DNA of 64,000 nucleotides from Kangiella sp. GTDB lineage: Bacteria > Pseudomonadota > Gammaproteobacteria > Enterobacterales > Kangiellaceae. The notes below the pieces were generated by a model. That model made no database searches, was not told the DNA's origin, and saw nothing but the letters and a program-made list of their open reading frames with translations. The translations under genes and the position numbers were made by a program. The stretch's first letter is position 1; each line of letters opens with the position of its first letter. Shown in pieces: positions 7,573 through 64,000 of the stretch. Where the stretch lies: the NCBI RefSeq assembly GCF_014762745.1, contig NZ_JABURJ010000135.1, positions 1-64,000 of the forward strand, in the 5' to 3' direction.

Positions 7573-8490
7573 TTATTTCTGGCCAAAGGATTCTTTAGCA
7601 ATTTCAGCGATTCCGGCCACCGAACCAATCACCGAAGAAGCCTCAAGCGGCAACATCAACAGTTTTTGATTATCGGCAGTGGCAATTTGCGCTAAGGCAT
7701 CAACATATTTCTGCGCAACGAAGTAGTTAATCGCCTGTACATTACCTTCGGCTATCGCTTTCGATACCATCTGCGTCGCATTAGCCTCAGCTTCGGCCTG
7801 ACGCTCGCGCGCTTCCGCTTCGCGGAATGCCGCTTCTTTTTCACCTTCCGCTTTCAAGATAGATGATTGCTTCATACCCTCAGCAGTTAAGATTTCTGAC
7901 TGTTTGGTGCCCTCGGCTTCAAGAATCTTGGCACGCTTCAAACGCTCAGCCTTCATCTGCTGCGCCATCGCATCGACCAGATCACGGGGCGGCAAAATGT
8001 CCTTAATCTCTATACGCGTTACTTTAACGCCCCAAGGATTAGTCGCTTCATCAACAATCGTCAAAATACGCGCATTGATTTCATCACGCTTAGAAAGCAT
8101 CCAGTCCAGATCCATGCTACCTAATACGGTACGGATATTGGTCTGCACCAGATTTTGCATGGCTCTATGCAGCTGATTGACTTCATAGGTCGCCTTAATC
8201 GGGTCGATCACCTGGAAAAAACACACCGCATCAATAGTGACGGTGGCGTTATCCTGTGAAATAACCTGTTGTGCAGGAATATCCAGTACCTGCTCTTTCA
8301 TATTCACCTTGGCCGCGACCTGATCCATGATAGGCACAATGATATGTAATCCCGGAGTCAGCACCTTACGGAACTTACCAAATCGCTCAACCGTATATTC
8401 AAAACCCTGATTAACGGTTTTAATCCCCGAAAATAGTAAGAAAACGACAAAAACAACCAACACAATTATAGTTATTAAACCTGCATCCAT
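7573..8490 (-). CDS. qmcA: SPFH/stomatin-like protein (QmcA type)
   Basis: 305 residues. An N-terminal membrane anchor (about 5-22) precedes an SPFH/band-7 domain (FEYTVERFGKFRKVLTPGLH to about 200) and a long Ala/Glu-rich coiled coil with repeats around LEAEGTKQSEILTAEGMKQS. Proteins of this family form large membrane ring or cage assemblies and influence membrane proteases. It is followed by the NfeD gene and is divergent from gpmI. Confidence 0.9.
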   Translation of the reverse strand: MDAGLITIIVLVVFVVFLLFSGIKTVNQGFEYTVERFGKFRKVLTPGLHIIVPIMDQVAAKVNMKEQVLDIPAQQVISQDNATVTIDAVCFFQVIDPIKATYEVNQLHRAMQNLVQTNIRTVLGSMDLDWMLSKRDEINARILTIVDEATNPWGVKVTRIEIKDILPPRDLVDAMAQQMKAERLKRAKILEAEGTKQSEILTAEGMKQSSILKAEGEKEAAFREAEARERQAEAEANATQMVSKAIAEGNVQAINYFVAQKYVDALAQIATADNQKLLMLPLEASSVIGSVAGIAEIAKESFGQK

Positions 8491-8662
8491 TAAATCATCC
8501 TCTTTGTTTATTGGAATTGTTAAAGCATTAACTATAGGTAGTTTTTCACAATGAAATCAATTGTTTTTATGTAATCAAGTTTATCTTAAAGGCTCTGGCT
8601 GGCTTAGAATCGAGGCAAAAGGTACAATAGCGCCAACTTTCAGCAAGCTAATTCAAAAATCC

Positions 8663-10198
8663 ATGAGTAACACGCCGAAACCTATGGCCTTAATCATCCT
8701 TGATGGTTGGGGTTACAGCGAAGATCCAACCGACAACGCCATCATGGCTGCCCATACCCCTAACTGGGATAAATACTGGCAACAATACAGCCATACACTG
8801 ATTTCCGGCTCTGGCACCGACGTTGGTCTACCTGACGGACAGATGGGTAACTCTGAAGTGGGTCACCTCAATCTTGGCGCAGGCCGTGTGGTCTATCAAG
8901 ACTACACCCGCATCAGCAAGGCCATTGTTGACGGTGATTTTTTTGACAATCAGGCTCTCGTTGCAGCCATTGATAAAGCCGTAGCACAGAACAAAGCGGT
9001 GCATCTGATGGGACTACTGTCACCGGGTGGCGTTCACAGCCATGAAGAACACTTTCACGCAGCGCTAAAACTGTGTCATCAGCGTGGCGCTAAAAAAGTC
9101 TATATCCATGCATTTCTGGATGGCCGCGATATGCCGCCACGTAGCGCGGAGGCCAGTCTTAAGCTGATGCAACAGGTATGCGAGCAACAGGGTGTCGGTC
9201 GTATTGCCAGTATCATTGGTCGTTACTATGCGATGGATCGCGACAATCGTTGGGAGCGCATTGAAGAAGCCTACCAAATGCTCACCGAAGGCAAAGCCGC
9301 TTATCAAGCCAATGACGCCGTTGCTGGCTTGCAAGCTGCTTATGAGCGCGACGAGAATGATGAGTTTGTTAAAGCTACAACTATTGGTGAGCCTGCAATA
9401 ATAGAGGATGGTGATTCAGTCATTTTCATGAACTACCGCGCTGACCGTGCACGCCAATTAAGTAAGACTTTTGTGAACGATGATTTTGATGGCTTCGTAC
9501 GCAAAGCTCGCCCTCAACTTGCCGACTTTGTGATGCTGACCGAATATGCATCTGACATTCCTGCCAGCGTCGCCTATCCGCCAATCGCCATGACTAATGT
9601 GCTTGGCGAGCATTTGATGAAACTTGGCAAGAAACAGTTGCGTATTGCCGAAACGGAAAAATATGCTCACGTAACTTTTTTCTTTAATGGTGGTCGCGAG
9701 GAACCCTTTGCTGGCGAAGACCGCAAACTCATTCCGTCTCCCCAGGTTGCAACCTATGACTTACAACCTGAAATGAATGCGGCCATGGTCACCGATCACT
9801 TGGTTGAAGTCATCGAAAATCAAAGCTATGACGTTATTATCTGCAACTTTGCTAACCCCGATATGGTAGGTCACACTGGCAATTTTGAAGCCACGGTAAA
9901 GGCTATTGAAGCACTGGATGTGTGTATTGGTCGCATCGTTGAAGCTTTAGAAAAAGTCGGTGGTGAAGCATTGATAACCGCTGACCATGGCAACGCTGAA
10001 AAAATGGCTGATGCTTCTACCGGACAGGCTCATACGGCTCACACTAACGAGCCGGTGCCATTACTTTATATCGGACGAAGTGCTTCAGTTAAAATCAGTG
10101 ATGGAGTACTCTCGGATCTGGCACCGACCATGTTAAGTTTGATGGGCTTGCCGATTCCTGAAGAAATGACGGGGCGTCCAATCTTTGAAGTTAACTGA
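8663..10198 (+). CDS. gpmI: 2,3-bisphosphoglycerate-independent phosphoglycerate mutase
   Basis: Interconverts 3- and 2-phosphoglycerate with two Mn ions. From the ATG at 8663 it has 511 residues (E. coli 514), starting just before the metal-binding [12 protein letters not shown]. The nucleophile is Ser64 in [24 protein letters not shown] near the C-terminus supplies further metal ligands. A longer in-frame ATG at 8561 gives an unconserved leader and a -10-like TACAAT (8623-8628) lies inside that leader, so it is rejected. The gene overlaps envC by 14 nt. Confidence 0.96.
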
Positions 10199-57106: not shown

Positions 57107-60100
57107 CTAAAGCGTTATCTCCTTCGCAATCATCTCGGCTTGTTTCAATACCGTTTCTGTTGCCAGTTTTTGCATGTCTGGTGGATAGCCGTATTGTCTC
57201 AATGTCCGCTTGATGATTACTTTCAGTTTTGCTCGTACACTTTCCTTGATTGTCCAATCGATGGATGCGTTTTGCTTTACTCGCTCGGTCAATATCACCG
57301 CCAGTTCTCTCAGTTTGTCTTGCTGCATGAGTTGTTTGGCTGAGTCGTTATTAGCCACTGCGGTGTAGAAAGCATATTCAAAGTCAGACAGTCCAAGTTT
57401 TTTGGCCTCACTGTCCATGTTTACGATTTCCTTACTCAACTTGATGAGTTCGTCCATCACTTCGGCAGCAGTCAAAATCTTGTTGTGGTACTTCTTGATG
57501 GAGTTCTCTAACATTTCTTTGAGCGACTTGCTCTTGACCAAATTCTTTTTAGAACGTGCTTTTATCTCATCATTCAGTAATTTCTTCAAAACTTCCAGCG
57601 CCACATTTTTGTGTTCCATTCCCTTTAATTCCATCAGGAAGTCCTCAGATAGAATGGAAATATCTGGTTTCTTAATACCTGCGGCATCAAAAACGTCAAT
57701 CACTTGCTCCGAAACCAAGGCCTGGTCAATTACTTGACGAATAGTGGTTTCAATTTCTTCATCGGTTCTGCCTAAACCTGTTCCGTCAAACTTGGCCAAA
57801 CGTGCTTTAACCGCTTGGAAAAATGACACTTCATCTTTCACGTCCATTGCTTGCTCGTGCGGAACGGCAATCGCAAAGGCTTTGGATAGGGCGGTTACTT
57901 CATTGATGTATCGTTTCTTACCGTCTTCCAGTCCGAGAATGTGTTCTTCTGCTGCTAGAATCATGGAAAGCTTTTGTCCTGTTTCGGCTTGGAAATAGTC
58001 TTCATACGGGAATCCGCTGTACATCTGTGAAACTACTTCCAGTTTTTCGAGCATCAACTCAACGGCTTGGGCTTGGGCAATGGTTGGGTCGCCTTTTCCT
58101 CCTGCATCAGAATAAAACGACAATGCTTTCTTCAAATCAGAAGCAATGCCCAAATAATCAACGACCAAACCACCTGGCTTGTCCTTGTACACTCGGTTGA
58201 CCCGTGCAATGGCTTGCATCAGGTTATGGCCTTTCATCGGTTTGTCAATGTAAAGGGTGTGCATGCTTGGTGCATCAAAACCAGTAAGCCACATATCCCG
58301 AACAATCACCAGTTTCAATTCATCGTCTGGGTCTTTCATGCGGTCGGCAAGGGTTCTTCGCTGTTGTTTGGTAGTATGATGTTTGGCAATTTTCGGTCCA
58401 TCTGAAGATGATGAAGTCATTACCACTTTAATCACGCCTTTGTCCAAATCATCTGAATGCCACTCAGGCTTTAACTTGATAATTTCCTCATACAAGTCAG
58501 CTGCAATCCTTCTGGACATGGCGACAATCATGCCTTTGCCTTCAAATACTTCTTGGCGTTGACCAAAATGCTGAATGATATCGTTGGCTACATTCTTAAT
58601 GCGGTTTTCACTGCCGATTAAGGCTTCCAATTGTGTCCATTTGGCTTTGGCTTTTTGTGTTTCGGTAAGTTCTTCTCCGTCCAACTCATCATCCAATTCC
58701 TCTACCAGCTTTTTACCTTCTTCGCTTAGATTGACTTTTGCCAAACGGCTTTCATAGTAAATGCGAACGGTTGCTCCGTCTTCTACGGCTTGGGCAATGT
58801 CATACACATCGATATAGTTTCCAAAAACTGCAGGTGTGTTGACATCCGTGCTTTCAATAGGTGTTCCAGTAAAACCGATATAGGTAGCATTAGGTAAAGC
58901 ATCACGCATGTACTTGGCAAAGCCGTACATGGTTTTCTTACCTACCACATTGCCATACTCGTCCTTTTCATCTACTGTTTTAGCTTTGAAACCATATTGC
59001 GTTCGATGGGCTTCATCAGCAATCACAACAATGTTTTCTCGCTCCGAAAGGGTTTCGTACACATTGCCTTCTTCGGGTGAGAACTTCTGAATGGTGGTAA
59101 AAATCACACCACCGGAAGCCACTTTCAGTTTTTCCTTTAAGTCGTTTCGGTTTTCTATTTGTTTAGGCTCTTGTCTTAATAACTGAGCAGAAGAAGCAAA
59201 GGTGTCAAAGAGCTGATCGTCCAAATCGTTTCTGTCGGTGATGACCACAACGGTGGGATTATCCAACGCCAACACGATTTTACCCGTGAAGAACACCATG
59301 GAAAGGGATTTCCCGCTTCCTTGGGTATGCCAAACCACACCACCTTTCCGGTCACCTTTGGGTTGCTTCTTAACCCCAGGTAACCCATAACTTTCAGGCG
59401 ATTCCATCACCATGTTGGTGGGTGTTTCTTTTTCTGCCGTATAACCTGTGGCACGCATGGCAGACTCTACTGCTCGATTTACAGCATAGTATTGATGATA
59501 AGCCGCTAATTTTTTGATGGTTGAAATGGTGGTTACGCCTGTTTTGGCATCTTCCTTTTTCGATTTTTCAAAAACAATGAAATGCCTGATCAAATCCAGC
59601 AAGGTTTCTTTGTTGAGCATGCCATTGATAAGCGTTTCCATTTGGCTCACCAAGTGTGATGCTTCTTCTTTGCCGTCTGCCGATTTCCAAGCCATAAACC
59701 GACTCATACCCGATGAAAGCGTTCCTGCTCTGGCTTCTAATCCATCTGAAATAACCGTGAATGCATTGTAGGTAAACAGACTTGGAATAACTGCTTTGTA
59801 AGTTTCTATTTGGCGGAATGCCGATTTGATGGTGGCGTTTTCGTCTGCTGCATTTTTCAGTTCCATCACTACCAAAGGAATACCGTTTACAAAGAGAATG
59901 ACATCAGGGCGTTTGTTGACGCCTTCTTCTACCACCGTAAATTGATTGGCGACAATAAAATCATTGTTTTCAGGTGTGTTGAAGTCGATTAACCATACCA
60001 AATCACCTCTTTGCTGTCCGTCTTTTTGATAGCTGACTTTGATGCCTTCGGTCAATAAGCGATGAAAGCTTTCATTGTTGGTCAATAACTCGGGCGAATG

Positions 60101-60331
60101 GATACGCTGAATCTCTTTGATGGCTTCTTCTTGTGCAGTAGGTGGCACGGTTGGGTTAATTCTTCTCACAGCTTCTGCCAAGCGATGCGTGAGCAGGATT
60201 TCTTCGTATGAACTCCGTTCGGGATATTCGCCATCATGGGCAATACTTGGAGCATAGATGTATTCATAGCCCAAATGCTCCAACAATTTGATGGCAAAAT
60301 CTTCTATGCTATGTTCGGTTATTCTTGTCAT
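57107..60331 (-). CDS. hsdR: Type I restriction endonuclease subunit R
   Basis: 1074 residues, full length. The N-terminal nuclease has the PD-(D/E)xK residues Asp143, Glu157 and Lys159 in RPDVILF and IPLVVMELK. The SF2 translocase has Walker A in TQGSGKSLSMVF, motif II in VIADEAHRTQYG, motif III FTGTPI and motif VI AIARVNRVYKDKPGG. The C-terminal part is helical, for binding the HsdM/S core. It cleaves DNA after ATP-driven translocation. It lies 10 nt downstream of the Shedu-like gene, as last gene of the operon. Confidence 0.96.
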   Translation of the reverse strand: MTRITEHSIEDFAIKLLEHLGYEYIYAPSIAHDGEYPERSSYEEILLTHRLAEAVRRINPTVPPTAQEEAIKEIQRIHSPELLTNNESFHRLLTEGIKVSYQKDGQQRGDLVWLIDFNTPENNDFIVANQFTVVEEGVNKRPDVILFVNGIPLVVMELKNAADENATIKSAFRQIETYKAVIPSLFTYNAFTVISDGLEARAGTLSSGMSRFMAWKSADGKEEASHLVSQMETLINGMLNKETLLDLIRHFIVFEKSKKEDAKTGVTTISTIKKLAAYHQYYAVNRAVESAMRATGYTAEKETPTNMVMESPESYGLPGVKKQPKGDRKGGVVWHTQGSGKSLSMVFFTGKIVLALDNPTVVVITDRNDLDDQLFDTFASSAQLLRQEPKQIENRNDLKEKLKVASGGVIFTTIQKFSPEEGNVYETLSERENIVVIADEAHRTQYGFKAKTVDEKDEYGNVVGKKTMYGFAKYMRDALPNATYIGFTGTPIESTDVNTPAVFGNYIDVYDIAQAVEDGATVRIYYESRLAKVNLSEEGKKLVEELDDELDGEELTETQKAKAKWTQLEALIGSENRIKNVANDIIQHFGQRQEVFEGKGMIVAMSRRIAADLYEEIIKLKPEWHSDDLDKGVIKVVMTSSSSDGPKIAKHHTTKQQRRTLADRMKDPDDELKLVIVRDMWLTGFDAPSMHTLYIDKPMKGHNLMQAIARVNRVYKDKPGGLVVDYLGIASDLKKALSFYSDAGGKGDPTIAQAQAVELMLEKLEVVSQMYSGFPYEDYFQAETGQKLSMILAAEEHILGLEDGKKRYINEVTALSKAFAIAVPHEQAMDVKDEVSFFQAVKARLAKFDGTGLGRTDEEIETTIRQVIDQALVSEQVIDVFDAAGIKKPDISILSEDFLMELKGMEHKNVALEVLKKLLNDEIKARSKKNLVKSKSLKEMLENSIKKYHNKILTAAEVMDELIKLSKEIVNMDSEAKKLGLSDFEYAFYTAVANNDSAKQLMQQDKLRELAVILTERVKQNASIDWTIKESVRAKLKVIIKRTLRQYGYPPDMQKLATETVLKQAEMIAKEITL

Positions 60332-60341
60332 CTAGTTTATG

Positions 60342-61622
60342 CTAATTCACTTTGCCCATCATGAGCTCTTTAAGGTTATTGAATCTTGCCAGCAGTTCAT
60401 CGAAGGTTAATATTTCCACATCTTTGCTATTGCTTCGGAATAATTCAAATGAACCCAATTCTTTATCGCTCAAATCTGAAATAGAACCCATCAATACAAC
60501 ACACTTTGAATTGAAGGTTTCAAATCCTTTGTCCTCACTATTCATCTTGTGAATGGCAAATTGTTTTTGAAAATTATCGCGTTGATTTAGAACCTGTGAA
60601 ATACCACCAGATAAATCGGAACTCATAGAAAACACATCGTTTCCTCTGTATGCAGCCCCCTTCTTAACTAAGTCAGTTTTATGTGTTTTGATTTCGATAA
60701 AAGCAACATTGTTGGTAAGGTTGTTTTTAACCAGAAAGTCTGTAACCTTCCCGTTTTTATTTGAAATTCCCTTACCTCCCACATAAGCCTCATCTTCATG
60801 CAAAATGATTGGAAAGGAAAAAATGTAAGAGAAAATCCAACTATGCTTTTTTAGGAAGCCTTGCCATTTTTTCTCGAGATTCTCAGTTTCTGTTTTTTGT
60901 TGCATGAGTTTTTCATAGTCTGCAATTACGTCATCAATGTATTGCTCATCTATCGTCTCTTTAGTTTTCAGCAAACTTTCAGGCGAAATGAAACCATCAG
61001 CAAGCATGAGTTTTTCAAAGAGTTCCTTTATGGCTTCTTTGTCAGTGTTTGAAAATTCATCTAGTGATTGCTTCCAAGTTGAAAGAGCAGTAGATATTGA
61101 ATTCTTTACATATTCCCTTTCAGCGGAATCAACTGCATCTGGAAACAGATTATGAAGCTCTTCTGATGCGAGAACTTCTCTATCTTGTTTCTGAATATCT
61201 AAATTGTGTTGGAAAACTTCGTGTAGTTTTATTAGGTCACTCTCTGATAAGGTCAGTGTCTTTCTATCTGCACTAAATGCGCTTTCACCCGTTTTGATGA
61301 TTCTAATTGTGTCCGTTGGGAAACTTGCTTCAATGAATTCAATAAGTGGTTTAAGAACTTTTGTAAACCCCAAGCCTCTTGATGATGACTTACTTACACC
61401 TACTGGCAATTGATTGCCAAATCCCTCATAAATGAACTGCTTAACTTTTGAATATTTTGGCCCTCCATTAAACCCAATAGGGTAGTGAACAACTTTGTCT
61501 GACCTTTTAAAAACTTCACGACAAATCTGGTCAATACCTTTTTCAGAGTCTACAAAATGATAGACCTCTTTTGTAGCCAAGTTTCTTTTTAATTGTTCTT
61601 CTCTTATTGGTTCGTCTGCCAT
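60342..61622 (-). CDS. Shedu-type (DUF4263) nuclease inside a type I RM operon
   Basis: 426 residues, not a canonical type I subunit. The C-terminal part (about 250-425) fits the SduA/DUF4263 domain: WQGFLKKHSWIFSYIF, AYVGGKGISNKNGKVTDFLV, VAFIEIKTHKTDLV, AAYRGNDVFSMSSDLSGGIS and QVLNQRDNFQKQ. The PD-(D/E)xK residues Asp295, Glu310 and Lys312 are all present. The N-terminal 240 residues are of unknown type and may sense or bind a partner. Spacing is 3 nt to hsdS and 10 nt to hsdR, so it is translated with the RM genes. Shedu is a known stand-alone anti-phage nuclease. Confidence 0.82.
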   Translation of the reverse strand: MADEPIREEQLKRNLATKEVYHFVDSEKGIDQICREVFKRSDKVVHYPIGFNGGPKYSKVKQFIYEGFGNQLPVGVSKSSSRGLGFTKVLKPLIEFIEASFPTDTIRIIKTGESAFSADRKTLTLSESDLIKLHEVFQHNLDIQKQDREVLASEELHNLFPDAVDSAEREYVKNSISTALSTWKQSLDEFSNTDKEAIKELFEKLMLADGFISPESLLKTKETIDEQYIDDVIADYEKLMQQKTETENLEKKWQGFLKKHSWIFSYIFSFPIILHEDEAYVGGKGISNKNGKVTDFLVKNNLTNNVAFIEIKTHKTDLVKKGAAYRGNDVFSMSSDLSGGISQVLNQRDNFQKQFAIHKMNSEDKGFETFNSKCVVLMGSISDLSDKELGSFELFRSNSKDVEILTFDELLARFNNLKELMMGKVN

Positions 61623-61625
61623 AGT

Positions 61626-62837
61626 TTAAATCTTTTCTAAAGTGGACTCGGAAACCCGCACCTCACCACTCATCAACTTCGGCAGCAGCGTATCCCGCAG
61701 GGCGGTTAGGGTGCGGATTTGGGTTTGGTTTTCAAAAATCTTATCAAACATTGGACTGACAAATTCATTGAACCTATCTAGTGTTGCTTCATCAGGCTGT
61801 AAGACAGGAATTTTGCTAAAATTTCCTGTATTTAAATTCAATGTTGCCGTACCTCCACTTGCCATAGCGTGTAAAAGGTCATATGAATTTTTCATTTCAC
61901 AATACAAGTAGTATCGGTATTCATCATCAGTTATGATTGAATTGATTTGCTGGTTTGTTTGAGAAGGAAAAGCGTTCATAGTTACCAAACCGACTGTCGC
62001 AATACAGCTTACATTGATTGATTTTGCTGGTAATGCTTTTTTCTCCTGAGATAGAAACCCCTCTTCACTCAATGAATCCTGAGTATCAAAAACAAATGTC
62101 TTCCCATGCATATCTGGAATTTTGATGAAAGGATATTCACCATCAAAATACTCAGGCTTCTTTTTACTTGGTGTTTTACCACAGATAATTTGACCAAATT
62201 CACTCAAAGGCCTTTCTTCCCATTCAGGATTGGGATTCTCCACAAACCACTGCCGAAAGAGCGTCTCCGCCATTTGCTCCAGGGTTTGGTTTTGGCGGTG
62301 CAGCAGGTCTATTTTGTCGTCTAAGCTGGATAGAACGGATGCGATTGCGTGTTGTTCAGATGGTGGTGGTAGCTTAAAATCATAGTCCTCTATTCTTGAA
62401 GGTGACGTATGCATTATGGAAGTTCCACTAGCTGAACTCACACAATACCATTGATACTCTGCAGTCCGCATCAACCAATAGAGATAATCCCTTGATACAT
62501 CATTATCGATGAACTCGACTAAACCGATTCGTTGATTATGAAGTAATACTTTACCTTTTATTGATGGAATTTTTGCTGAATATCCAAGCGTGTCAGACTC
62601 TTTACTTAAATCTGTCATAGTCACTACTATGTCACCTTCTGAAAGGACATAATCCTCTGGATAGTCTGAATTGAAATATTTGAACTTCGAAGATTTGAAA
62701 CCGCCACCAATTTTGAAGTTTCCAGGGGTCACAAGTATTGCATCGGTTTCTTCATCAGTGATGCTTTTCCCTTTAAAAGCATAGCCATGCTTGACTTTAA
62801 TAAAATCCCCAAGTTTTTTTGATTTCCACTCACTCAT
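61626..62837 (-). CDS. hsdS: Type I restriction-modification specificity subunit S
   Basis: 403 residues with two target-recognition domains. The first (about 1-150) ends in the conserved helix region [20 protein letters not shown] plus [19 protein letters not shown]; the second TRD (about 205-345) ends with the repeat-like helix [20 protein letters not shown]. The two helices space the TRDs, so a bipartite target is expected. It starts 8 nt inside hsdM and is read through to the Shedu-like gene. Confidence 0.95.
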
Positions 62838-64000
62838 TAATTTTCACTTTTTGAAGGTTAGCGGCAATGCGTTCGTTGAGTTCGACTTCCTTTTTGAGTT
62901 GGGCTTCAAACTCGGCTTTCAGGCTCGTAAAGTGTTCTGCAAAGTCAAAGTCATCTTCTTCCTCCGCCAGGCCTACATAGCGGCCTGGGGTGAGTACATA
63001 GTCCAGTTCGGCTACCCGTTCTTTGGTGGCAGAAGCACAGAAACCTTTTATGTCTTCATAGTTGCCATCGGTATTTCGCCAGTTGTGGTAGGTGCTTGCA
63101 ATGGTTTGTATGTCTTCCTCAGAAAGCACTTTGGTTCTGCGGTTTATCAAATGCCCCAAGTTGCGGGCATCAATAAAGAGAATTTCGCCAGTGCGGTTTC
63201 GGAACTTGCCATTACTGCGGTTGCGGCTCATAAACCAAAGCGAAGCAGGAATTTGGGTATTCAAAAACAACTTGGCAGGCAGGTTTACAATGCAGTCAAT
63301 CAAATCGGCTTCCACCAATTCTTTTCTGATGTCGCCTTCACCGCCACTTTTAGAAGTCAAAGCCCCTTTAGCCAATACAAAACCTGCTTGTCCGCTTGGT
63401 GCCAAGTGGTACATGAAATGTTGTATCCATGCATAGTTTGCATTTCCTGTGGGTGGTGTGCCGTATTTCCAGCGTCCATCTTTACGAAGCAAATCACCGC
63501 TCCAATCGCTCACGTTAAACGGTGGGTTGGCAATGATATAATCGGCTTTAAGGTCTTTGTGGGCATCATTCAAAAACGAGCCTTCGTTGTTCCATTTCAC
63601 TTGCGAGCTATCAATGCCACGGATAGCCAAATTCATTTTTGCCAGTCTCCAAGTGGTTTGGTTGCTTTCCTGTCCGTAAATGGAAATATCATTGATCTTT
63701 CCTTGGTGTTCGGTTACGAACTCCTCAGACTGCACGAACATTCCACCCGATCCACAGCAAGGATCAAATACTCGGCCTTTATAAGGTTCGAGCATTTCTA
63801 CCAAGAGCTCAACAACACTTCTTGGCGTGTAGAACTGCCCACCCTTTTTACCTTCTGCCAAGGCAAATTCACCCAGAAAGTATTCAAACACATGCCCAAG
63901 CACATCCGCACTTCGAGCTTTGGCATCACCCAAGGCAATATTACCAATCATGTCAATCAGTTCACCCAAACTGGTCGGGTCAAGGTTTTGTCGTGCATAA
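62830..64000 (-). CDS. hsdM: Type I restriction-modification methyltransferase subunit M (partial)
   Basis: N6-adenine methyltransferase. The frame is open to the window edge; the first visible residues read [20 protein letters not shown], the family pattern, so the true start lies outside and the TTG at 63969 is not the start. The SAM motif is [17 protein letters not shown], the catalytic motif is [12 protein letters not shown], and [20 protein letters not shown] is also conserved. The C-terminal helical region is complete. The 5' part, probably about 100 or more residues, is missing. Confidence 0.95.

Follow-up and report, generated by a model that had tools for sequence, protein, structure and literature searches.

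Why does the gene for a Shedu nuclease lie inside a type I restriction-modification (RM) operon, between hsdS and hsdR, and is the nuclease tied to the RM enzyme or carried by it? The question is raised by a stretch of 64,000 nucleotides from Kangiella sp., here called the window, in which the following features were located.

57107..60331, minus strand: hsdR, 1074 aa, with RPD..ELK (141-159), Walker A GSGKS and DEAH motifs
60342..61622, minus strand: Shedu-family nuclease gene (SduA-like), 426 aa, ATG start, between hsdS and hsdR
60345..60887, minus strand: C-terminal PD-(D/E)xK nuclease domain, residues 246-426 (PF14082 at 249-411; VIA-align 8ti9)
60687..60689, minus strand: K312 codon, invariant in alignments
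60693..60695, minus strand: E310 codon, invariant in alignments
60738..60740, minus strand: D295 codon, invariant in alignments
60888..61622, minus strand: N-terminal region, residues 1-245, predicted by AlphaFold2 as beta-rich (about 1-126), a long helix (127-159) and a helical linker
61626..62837, minus strand: hsdS, 403 aa, with a PF01420 match in two stretches
62830..64000, minus strand: hsdM with NPPF and GSGG motifs, running past the window edge and complete in the genome contig (515 aa)

The hsdM, hsdS and hsdR genes form an adjacent set, and all three products gave strong Pfam matches; judged by its motifs, the RM enzyme does not look broken. The hsdM and hsdS genes overlap by 8 nt. 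A gap of 3 nt (61623-61625) separates hsdS from the Shedu gene and one of 10 nt (60332-60341) separates the latter from hsdR, as had been reported in a first-pass annotation of the window. Co-expression, which the same annotation read from the tight packing with hsdM-hsdS-hsdR, is likely, and the order hsdM-hsdS-shedu-hsdR is probably transcribed as one unit. A search for an internal promoter of the Shedu gene was uninformative: the operon region held 15 promoter-like sites, and shuffled sequences gave an expectation of 16.1. On another contig of the same genome there is a second, distant HsdR relative (L106, G000:C60:11278-12501), with 38% identity over part of its length.

The 426-aa ORF was matched by Pfam SduA_C (PF14082, DUF4263) at residues 249-411 (E=7.4e-29, 101 bits, cut-off 27) and by 15 SduA models of PADLOC, the best of which was PDLC00384 (E=3e-77, residues 70-424). 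In NCBIfam no Shedu model was found for it, the three rows returned being far below cut-off. The nearest solved relative by sequence is B. cereus SduA 8ti8 (phmmer against PDB, E=2.4e-33), to which the nuclease domain is 34% identical. A full-length model (mean pLDDT 80; residues 270-302 below 50) was aligned by VIA-align with B. cereus SduA 8ti9 over 179 residues of the nuclease domain (Z 19.4, rmsd 2.5), and with E. coli SduA 8ps4 from 6-423 to 1-408, where Z was 16.4 but rmsd 14.8. D295, E310 and K312 are intact and do not vary in alignments of 10 and of 38 rows. The earlier call of a DUF4263-like nuclease with all three PD-(D/E)xK residues therefore stands, the profiles having placed the protein within that family and not outside it. 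By profile and active-site conservation, the ORF is a Shedu-family nuclease, and it presumably acts in defence. A chance ORF or misannotation was ruled out by profiles, conservation and dN/dS; the ORF is more than a chance frame because near-copies of it elsewhere show a Shedu dN/dS of 0.034-0.052 over six pairs.

The N-terminal part had been described as 240 unassigned residues. This is correct in that no Pfam family exceeded its cut-off there, but residues 70 onward lie within the PADLOC Shedu model, and the region aligns with its counterpart in standalone Shedu relatives. An additional domain precedes the nuclease, with residues 10-160 predicted at a pLDDT of mostly 80-97 per block of ten; modelled alone with AlphaFold2, the N-terminal region reached a mean pLDDT of 80. 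Foldseek returned no match below 0.001 for this model, and a profile of the region detected no solved relative among PDB sequences, the best row (E=1.8) being an unrelated protein. In VIA-align the top row was 8ps5, E. coli SduA with DNA (Z 4.5, rmsd 4.8, 132 residues aligned, 6-171 to 1-180), with unrelated rows at 4.1. In the portion of a review that covers it, E. coli SduA is described as clamping free DNA ends and nicking at a fixed distance (PMC12904381). An end-clamp-like N-terminal domain in the window protein is a lead, not a result, as the predicted fold resembles that of E. coli SduA only tentatively. The idea of an RM-specific N-terminal domain was unsupported, since standalone relatives have a region that aligns with it.

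Near-copies of the operon were found at three loci, in Seonamhaeicola sediminis (L014), in a Balneolales bacterium (L015) and, in part, in Cyclobacterium xiamenense (L016), with 88-91% DNA identity to the window outside hsdS. In L014 and L015 the similarity extends from the hsdM start codon to a few bases short of the hsdR stop, and the available flanks are unmatched. Within hsdS, the DNA matches the near-copies only at one block (62238-62357) and at the hsdM overlap, and HsdS identity is 28-60% (three pairs); therefore, the specificity gene was swapped and the remainder of the operon retained. The operon, Shedu included, appears to have travelled between bacteria.

The near-copy Shedu genes contain no internal stops, and their dN/dS values stand beside 0.021-0.029 for HsdR (six pairs) and 0.036-0.055 for HsdM (three pairs). 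By these ratios, purifying selection acts on Shedu about as it does on the RM subunits. There are hints that it may also have moved separately from the RM genes: between the window and L014, dS is 0.22 for Shedu and 0.62 for hsdR, although other pairs differ less and L014-L016 points in the opposite direction, and GC is 0.36 for Shedu against 0.43 for hsdR. In L016 Shedu homology begins only at about codon 97, with unrelated sequence at the contig start, which reflects either gene truncation or an assembly fault; hsdR is intact. L015 carries a 158-aa ORF without Pfam match (8303-8779) between hsdM and hsdS, which is absent in the window and L014. Among 60 relatives of the window's genome, a related Shedu was found in one, belonging to another genus, and no hsd gene was seen beside it on its 7.9-kb contig; therefore, the arrangement is not a family trait. 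The window's genome would have acquired it.

Recurrence of the arrangement was followed in a scan of species genomes, which yielded 137 confirmed Shedu relatives, of which the best 80 were kept. Addition of the window, of eight loci from plasmids and of two from genomes gave a set of 89 rows (82 different sequences). Rows L075 and L076 (short), L002 and L003 (places covered by L050 and L051) and L004 and L005 (re-fetched as L114 and L115) were dropped before the tree was made. A Shedu gene was scored as embedded when an hsd gene lay within 1.5 kb on the same strand, and as alone when both flanks were available for at least 3 kb and showed no hsd-like match up to 5 kb away; the hsd profiles were built from few seeds, and RM genes that are divergent or lie farther off may have escaped them. 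By this scoring, 22 rows were embedded (the window included), 45 were alone, three were near an RM-like gene (5 kb or less) and the remaining 19 were unreadable. These counts include seven rows identical to L009, without which the 82 rows comprise 22 embedded, 39 alone, three near and 18 unknown. The linkage thus recurs, as a search for the same gene order had been proposed to reveal, in 22 of 70 readable loci including the window's, on several RM backbones and in several phyla; this share is not an unbiased frequency, as four of the 10 proteins in the scan alignment were already RM-embedded (window, L006-L008). Uniqueness to the window's genome was ruled out by the Shedu genes found beside RM genes at other loci.

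A sample of the class Gammaproteobacteria, chosen irrespective of RM content, gave a complementary picture. SduA_C was found in 15 of 369 genomes, at 17 loci, of which the window's alone was seen within a type I RM operon. Among the remaining 16, one is in a BREX operon (L202) and another (L206) has an hsdM-profile match about 5 kb away; five (L204, L208, L212, L213 and L214) are on short contigs or near a contig end. With one of 17 class loci in a type I RM operon, the linkage cannot be general for Shedu either. On plasmids, eight of 140 records were inspected, and Shedu was embedded in four of the eight and not in the other four.

The position within the embedded loci is regular. In 18 of the 22, the Shedu ORF follows hsdS directly, at 25 nt or less or overlapping, a spacing that depends partly on the choice of the longest ORF. 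The exceptions are L067 (222 nt, in a decayed operon), L048 (beside hsdR), L052 (after hsdR, in an actinomycete) and L016 (at a contig edge). Among 24 hsdS-like ORFs of at least 200 aa in the scan loci, 13 immediately precede Shedu, 10 are located farther upstream of it and one is downstream. Three operon builds were distinguished. The first is M-S-Shedu-R, the type of the window. The second is S'-M-RhuM-S-Shedu-HAD or DUF3800-R-SprT, as annotated in L007, L008 and L013, and its hsd spacing is also present in L033, L036, L044, L045 and L053. The third, R-AAA-M-S-Shedu-ATPase, is annotated in V. fluvialis; Thalassotalea (L056) has similar DNA, as does Colwellia (L065) as far as the Shedu end. 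In the large operons L007, L008, L013, L033, L036, L038, L044, L045 and L053, a short extra hsdS-like gene precedes hsdM, and the annotated ones (L007, L008 and L013) also carry RhuM, HAD or DUF3800, and an SprT-type metalloprotease.

On the tree, the embedded label requires 11 changes, at least nine of them forced by starred branches, and none of 500 shuffles was as low. The label therefore appears clustered, to which near-copies contribute, yet repeatedly gained or lost. The window's clade of four sits among standalone relatives in this quick tree, in which long branches are present. Apart from the RM question, an identical Shedu protein was found in eight records (L009, L058-L064), a Citrobacter plasmid and seven genome contigs, whose carriers span families (Stenotrophomonas, Pseudomonas, Pseudochrobactrum and others) and point to very recent spread. 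In the open papers covered by a literature search, there was no clear account of Shedu in a type I RM operon; subscription papers and preprints (e.g. Payne 2024) were outside its scope. A figure legend in PMC11706625 names type I RM and Shedu among the defence systems near diDNase genes, which need not mean that the two adjoin.

The hsdS-hsdR interval was then considered from the side of the RM operon. HsdR relatives (E<=1e-150) occurred in 52 of the 369 genomes of the class, at 56 places. Upstream regions were fetched for 40 of the 56, and 12 of these 40, without recognisable hsdS or hsdR, were left out, so that 28 loci were readable. The interval was occupied in 26 of the 28 and empty in two, where occupied means a same-strand ORF of at least 100 aa, some of which may be spurious; at least once (L184), it is filled by an insertion-sequence-like integrase. 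Among the families listed (25 of 38), the 55 slot ORFs comprised nine Fic, seven RhuM, six Abi_C and four DUF3800 members, and there were also AAA/SMC, Schlafen-AlbA, IrrE-type peptidase, reverse transcriptase, DUF4268 and other proteins, the cargo spanning at least ten different Pfam families. At least eight slot ORFs matched the PADLOC candidate PDC-S23 and at least seven PDC-S05. A Shedu profile gave no match among 332 ORFs in the 40 regions.

The closest operons agree with this variability. The HsdR relative at 80% identity (G242, whose HsdR has one internal stop) has a RhuM/Fic gene in place of Shedu, which speaks against a specific coupling of Shedu with this HsdR. The relative at 77% (G176) has a slot gene 42% identical to the RhuM/Fic gene of G242. 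Four readable relatives at 46-47% HsdR identity carry SIR2 (two), DUF4268, and an SMC-like ATPase with Fic, and the contig of a fifth, G048, was too short. The window thus has a same-strand non-RM gene between hsdS and hsdR, and related operons hold other genes there. For the window's HsdR family, the interval is by these gene contents a general cargo site, with Shedu among its rarer occupants. It looks like a general parking place for defence genes and is not proof of cooperation between Shedu and HsdR.

Shedu is also found without its RM genes and in other systems. Plasmid pIDH5335-1 of V. fluvialis has the order XRE-PIN-hsdR-AAA-hsdM-hsdS-Shedu-ATPase. Compared with it, V. pacinii has flanks of 93 and 98% DNA identity and lacks a 6.7-kb stretch that starts early in hsdR and ends with hsdS. 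At the junction the alignments overlap by 9 bases, the start of hsdR remains, and the Shedu and ATPase genes are open. Another hsdM-hsdS-hsdR set starts 5.1 kb downstream of Shedu, and V. pacinii is therefore not RM-free. Loss of the adjacent RM genes with Shedu kept speaks for modularity. In L006 and L047 (9752-13146), the gene after Shedu encodes 672 aa, and its product matches a GHKL-type ATPase weakly (E=0.03, below cut-off). The two may represent the GHKL-Shedu fusion VcSduA in split form, and the pair was kept in V. pacinii after the adjacent RM loss. GHKL-type proteins of the paraMORC3 group were noted in RM neighbourhoods in 2008 (PMC2292703) and linked to Shedu later (PMC12137116), in the passages of these papers that treat them. 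In locus L202 (G086:C2, 3941-14387), Shedu belongs to a BREX operon, PglX-PDC-S02-SduA-PglZ-BrxL, between the PDC-S02 nuclease gene and pglZ. In the Bacteroidales locus L032 (7926-14488), downstream of Shedu come a type III RM methylase gene, one more ORF and the gene of a type III restriction enzyme.

Taken together, these observations are probably best explained by a complete type I RM operon that holds Shedu, in its hsdS-hsdR interval, as an independent and complementary cargo nuclease. Shedu would be made together with the RM enzyme from one transcript. Its N-terminal domain would sense a DNA structure, which in E. coli SduA is a free DNA end, and the C-terminal PD-(D/E)xK domain would nick or cut DNA near the sensed end. 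Shedu would work independently of HsdR and complement an RM enzyme that acts only on unmethylated recognition sites. The functional coupling that had been suggested for the packed genes finds little favour, as the slot holds other ORFs in 26 of 28 operons of the same HsdR family and 45 of 70 readable Shedu rows are alone. Several points count against this reading, whose end-sensing part leans on a weak fold match (Z 4.5). The regular pairing after hsdS (18 of 22), and the retention of Shedu while hsdS was exchanged, could reflect selection for a functional pair. V. pacinii still has its other type I RM 5 kb downstream and is an imperfect example of Shedu without RM. By analogy, TgvAB, another occupant of the slot, may argue the same way: in the portion of PMC11411939 that treats it, TgvAB by itself protects 10- to 100-fold less than the complete cluster does against some phages, for which the authors suggest expression effects.

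A two-step coupling is rather unlikely, in which HsdR cuts would create ends and Shedu would nick or degrade the fragments and block repair or rejoining, with the pair co-selected. Free-end clamping and nicking at a fixed distance, as given for E. coli SduA in that part of the review (PMC12904381), would suit the scheme, but no RM-specific adaptation is visible in the window protein, whose N-terminal region aligns with that of standalone relatives. The recurrence of Shedu beside DNA cutters or proposed nickers (type I RM, a BREX operon and type III RM) is offset by the 45 of 70 readable rows without an hsd gene within 5 kb. Likewise, the HsdR motifs of the window are intact and near-copies from different groups keep Shedu, yet in this family of RM operons the slot is filled by many other genes and the V. 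pacinii Shedu persists without an adjacent RM, though another is 5 kb away.

A wider form of this reading is also unlikely. Break-making systems (type I RM, type III RM and BREX) would repeatedly have recruited the end-acting Shedu, in type I operons mostly after the specificity gene, and Shedu would destroy or lock the fragments. If this were true, Shedu would be a shared amplifier of break-making immunity, co-selected with the RM backbone while hsdS was exchanged. A relay in which HsdR makes the ends and Shedu acts on them is an attractive possibility, and the back-up role treated below is less supported than such a relay.

That Shedu merely hitchhikes in a recombination hotspot capturing any gene, and contributes little in this host, is quite unlikely given the strong purifying selection on it (dN/dS 0.034-0.052 over six pairs, no internal stops). 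The highly variable slot, the Cyclobacterium locus (L016) with its partial Shedu homology beside an intact hsdR, and the differences in GC and in dS between the window and L014, which may mean separate exchange, would all fit such passive carriage. Least probable, and very unlikely, is the back-up nuclease, which the RM complex would hold inactive and release when a phage inhibits or evades HsdR: the tight packing after hsdS in 18 of 22 embedded cases and the back-up effectors proposed for BREX in the relevant part of PMC12839542 agree with it, but no RM-specific domain is seen, standalone Shedus have a similar N-terminal region, and V. pacinii kept Shedu after loss of the adjacent RM (another being 5 kb off), where one would expect a toxic enzyme under RM guard to disappear as well. 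As stated in the first-pass annotation, the back-up role upon HsdR failure is thus unsupported.

The locus extends by Shedu the range of defence genes known from the hsdS-hsdR slot of type I RM operons, and the pairing recurs in different RM backbones and phyla. Natural comparisons are provided by the near-copies with exchanged hsdS, by homologous operons with other cargo and by the Vibrio pair with and without the adjacent RM. The question whether end-sensing nucleases use the ends made by restriction enzymes is thereby made testable.

Among known systems, the back-up idea is similar in spirit to the anticodon nuclease PrrC, which is kept by the EcoprrI RM system. For a PrrC-like control of Shedu by the RM complex, the genomic evidence, namely the standalone relatives and V. 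pacinii, appears neutral to negative. B. cereus SduA (8ti8/8ti9), a single-gene system, is alike in the nuclease domain, whereas its N-terminal part has no sequence match to the window Shedu. The DNA-end-sensing E. coli SduA (8ps4/8ps5) matches the window protein by sequence in the nuclease domain only, and its N-terminal domain shows a weak fold likeness (Z 4.5). Shedu-BREX linkage and auxiliary or back-up effectors of BREX are described in the same part of PMC12839542; Shedu is there an auxiliary effector, and the host system is BREX in those loci but type I RM in the window.

Other defence genes share the position itself. RloF is also cited as a defence gene between hsdS and hsdR, in the excerpt that mentions it. 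DarTG2, in the RRDM island of EPEC, lies between hsdS and hsdR, and the site is called a potential recombination hotspot in the relevant passage of PMC12255303. Its place in a type I RM operon is thus that of the window Shedu; unlike Shedu, the cargo is a toxin-antitoxin pair, preceded by a repressor gene, rptR. TgvAB of Vibrio cholerae VPI-2, treated in parts of PMC11411939 and PMC12409362, is restriction cargo within a type I RM operon, like the window Shedu. It is a two-gene, GmrSD-like type IV enzyme against modified DNA, for which HsdR cleavage is not needed, and from the same slot it protects even with a restriction-dead HsdR, as stated in that portion of PMC11411939.
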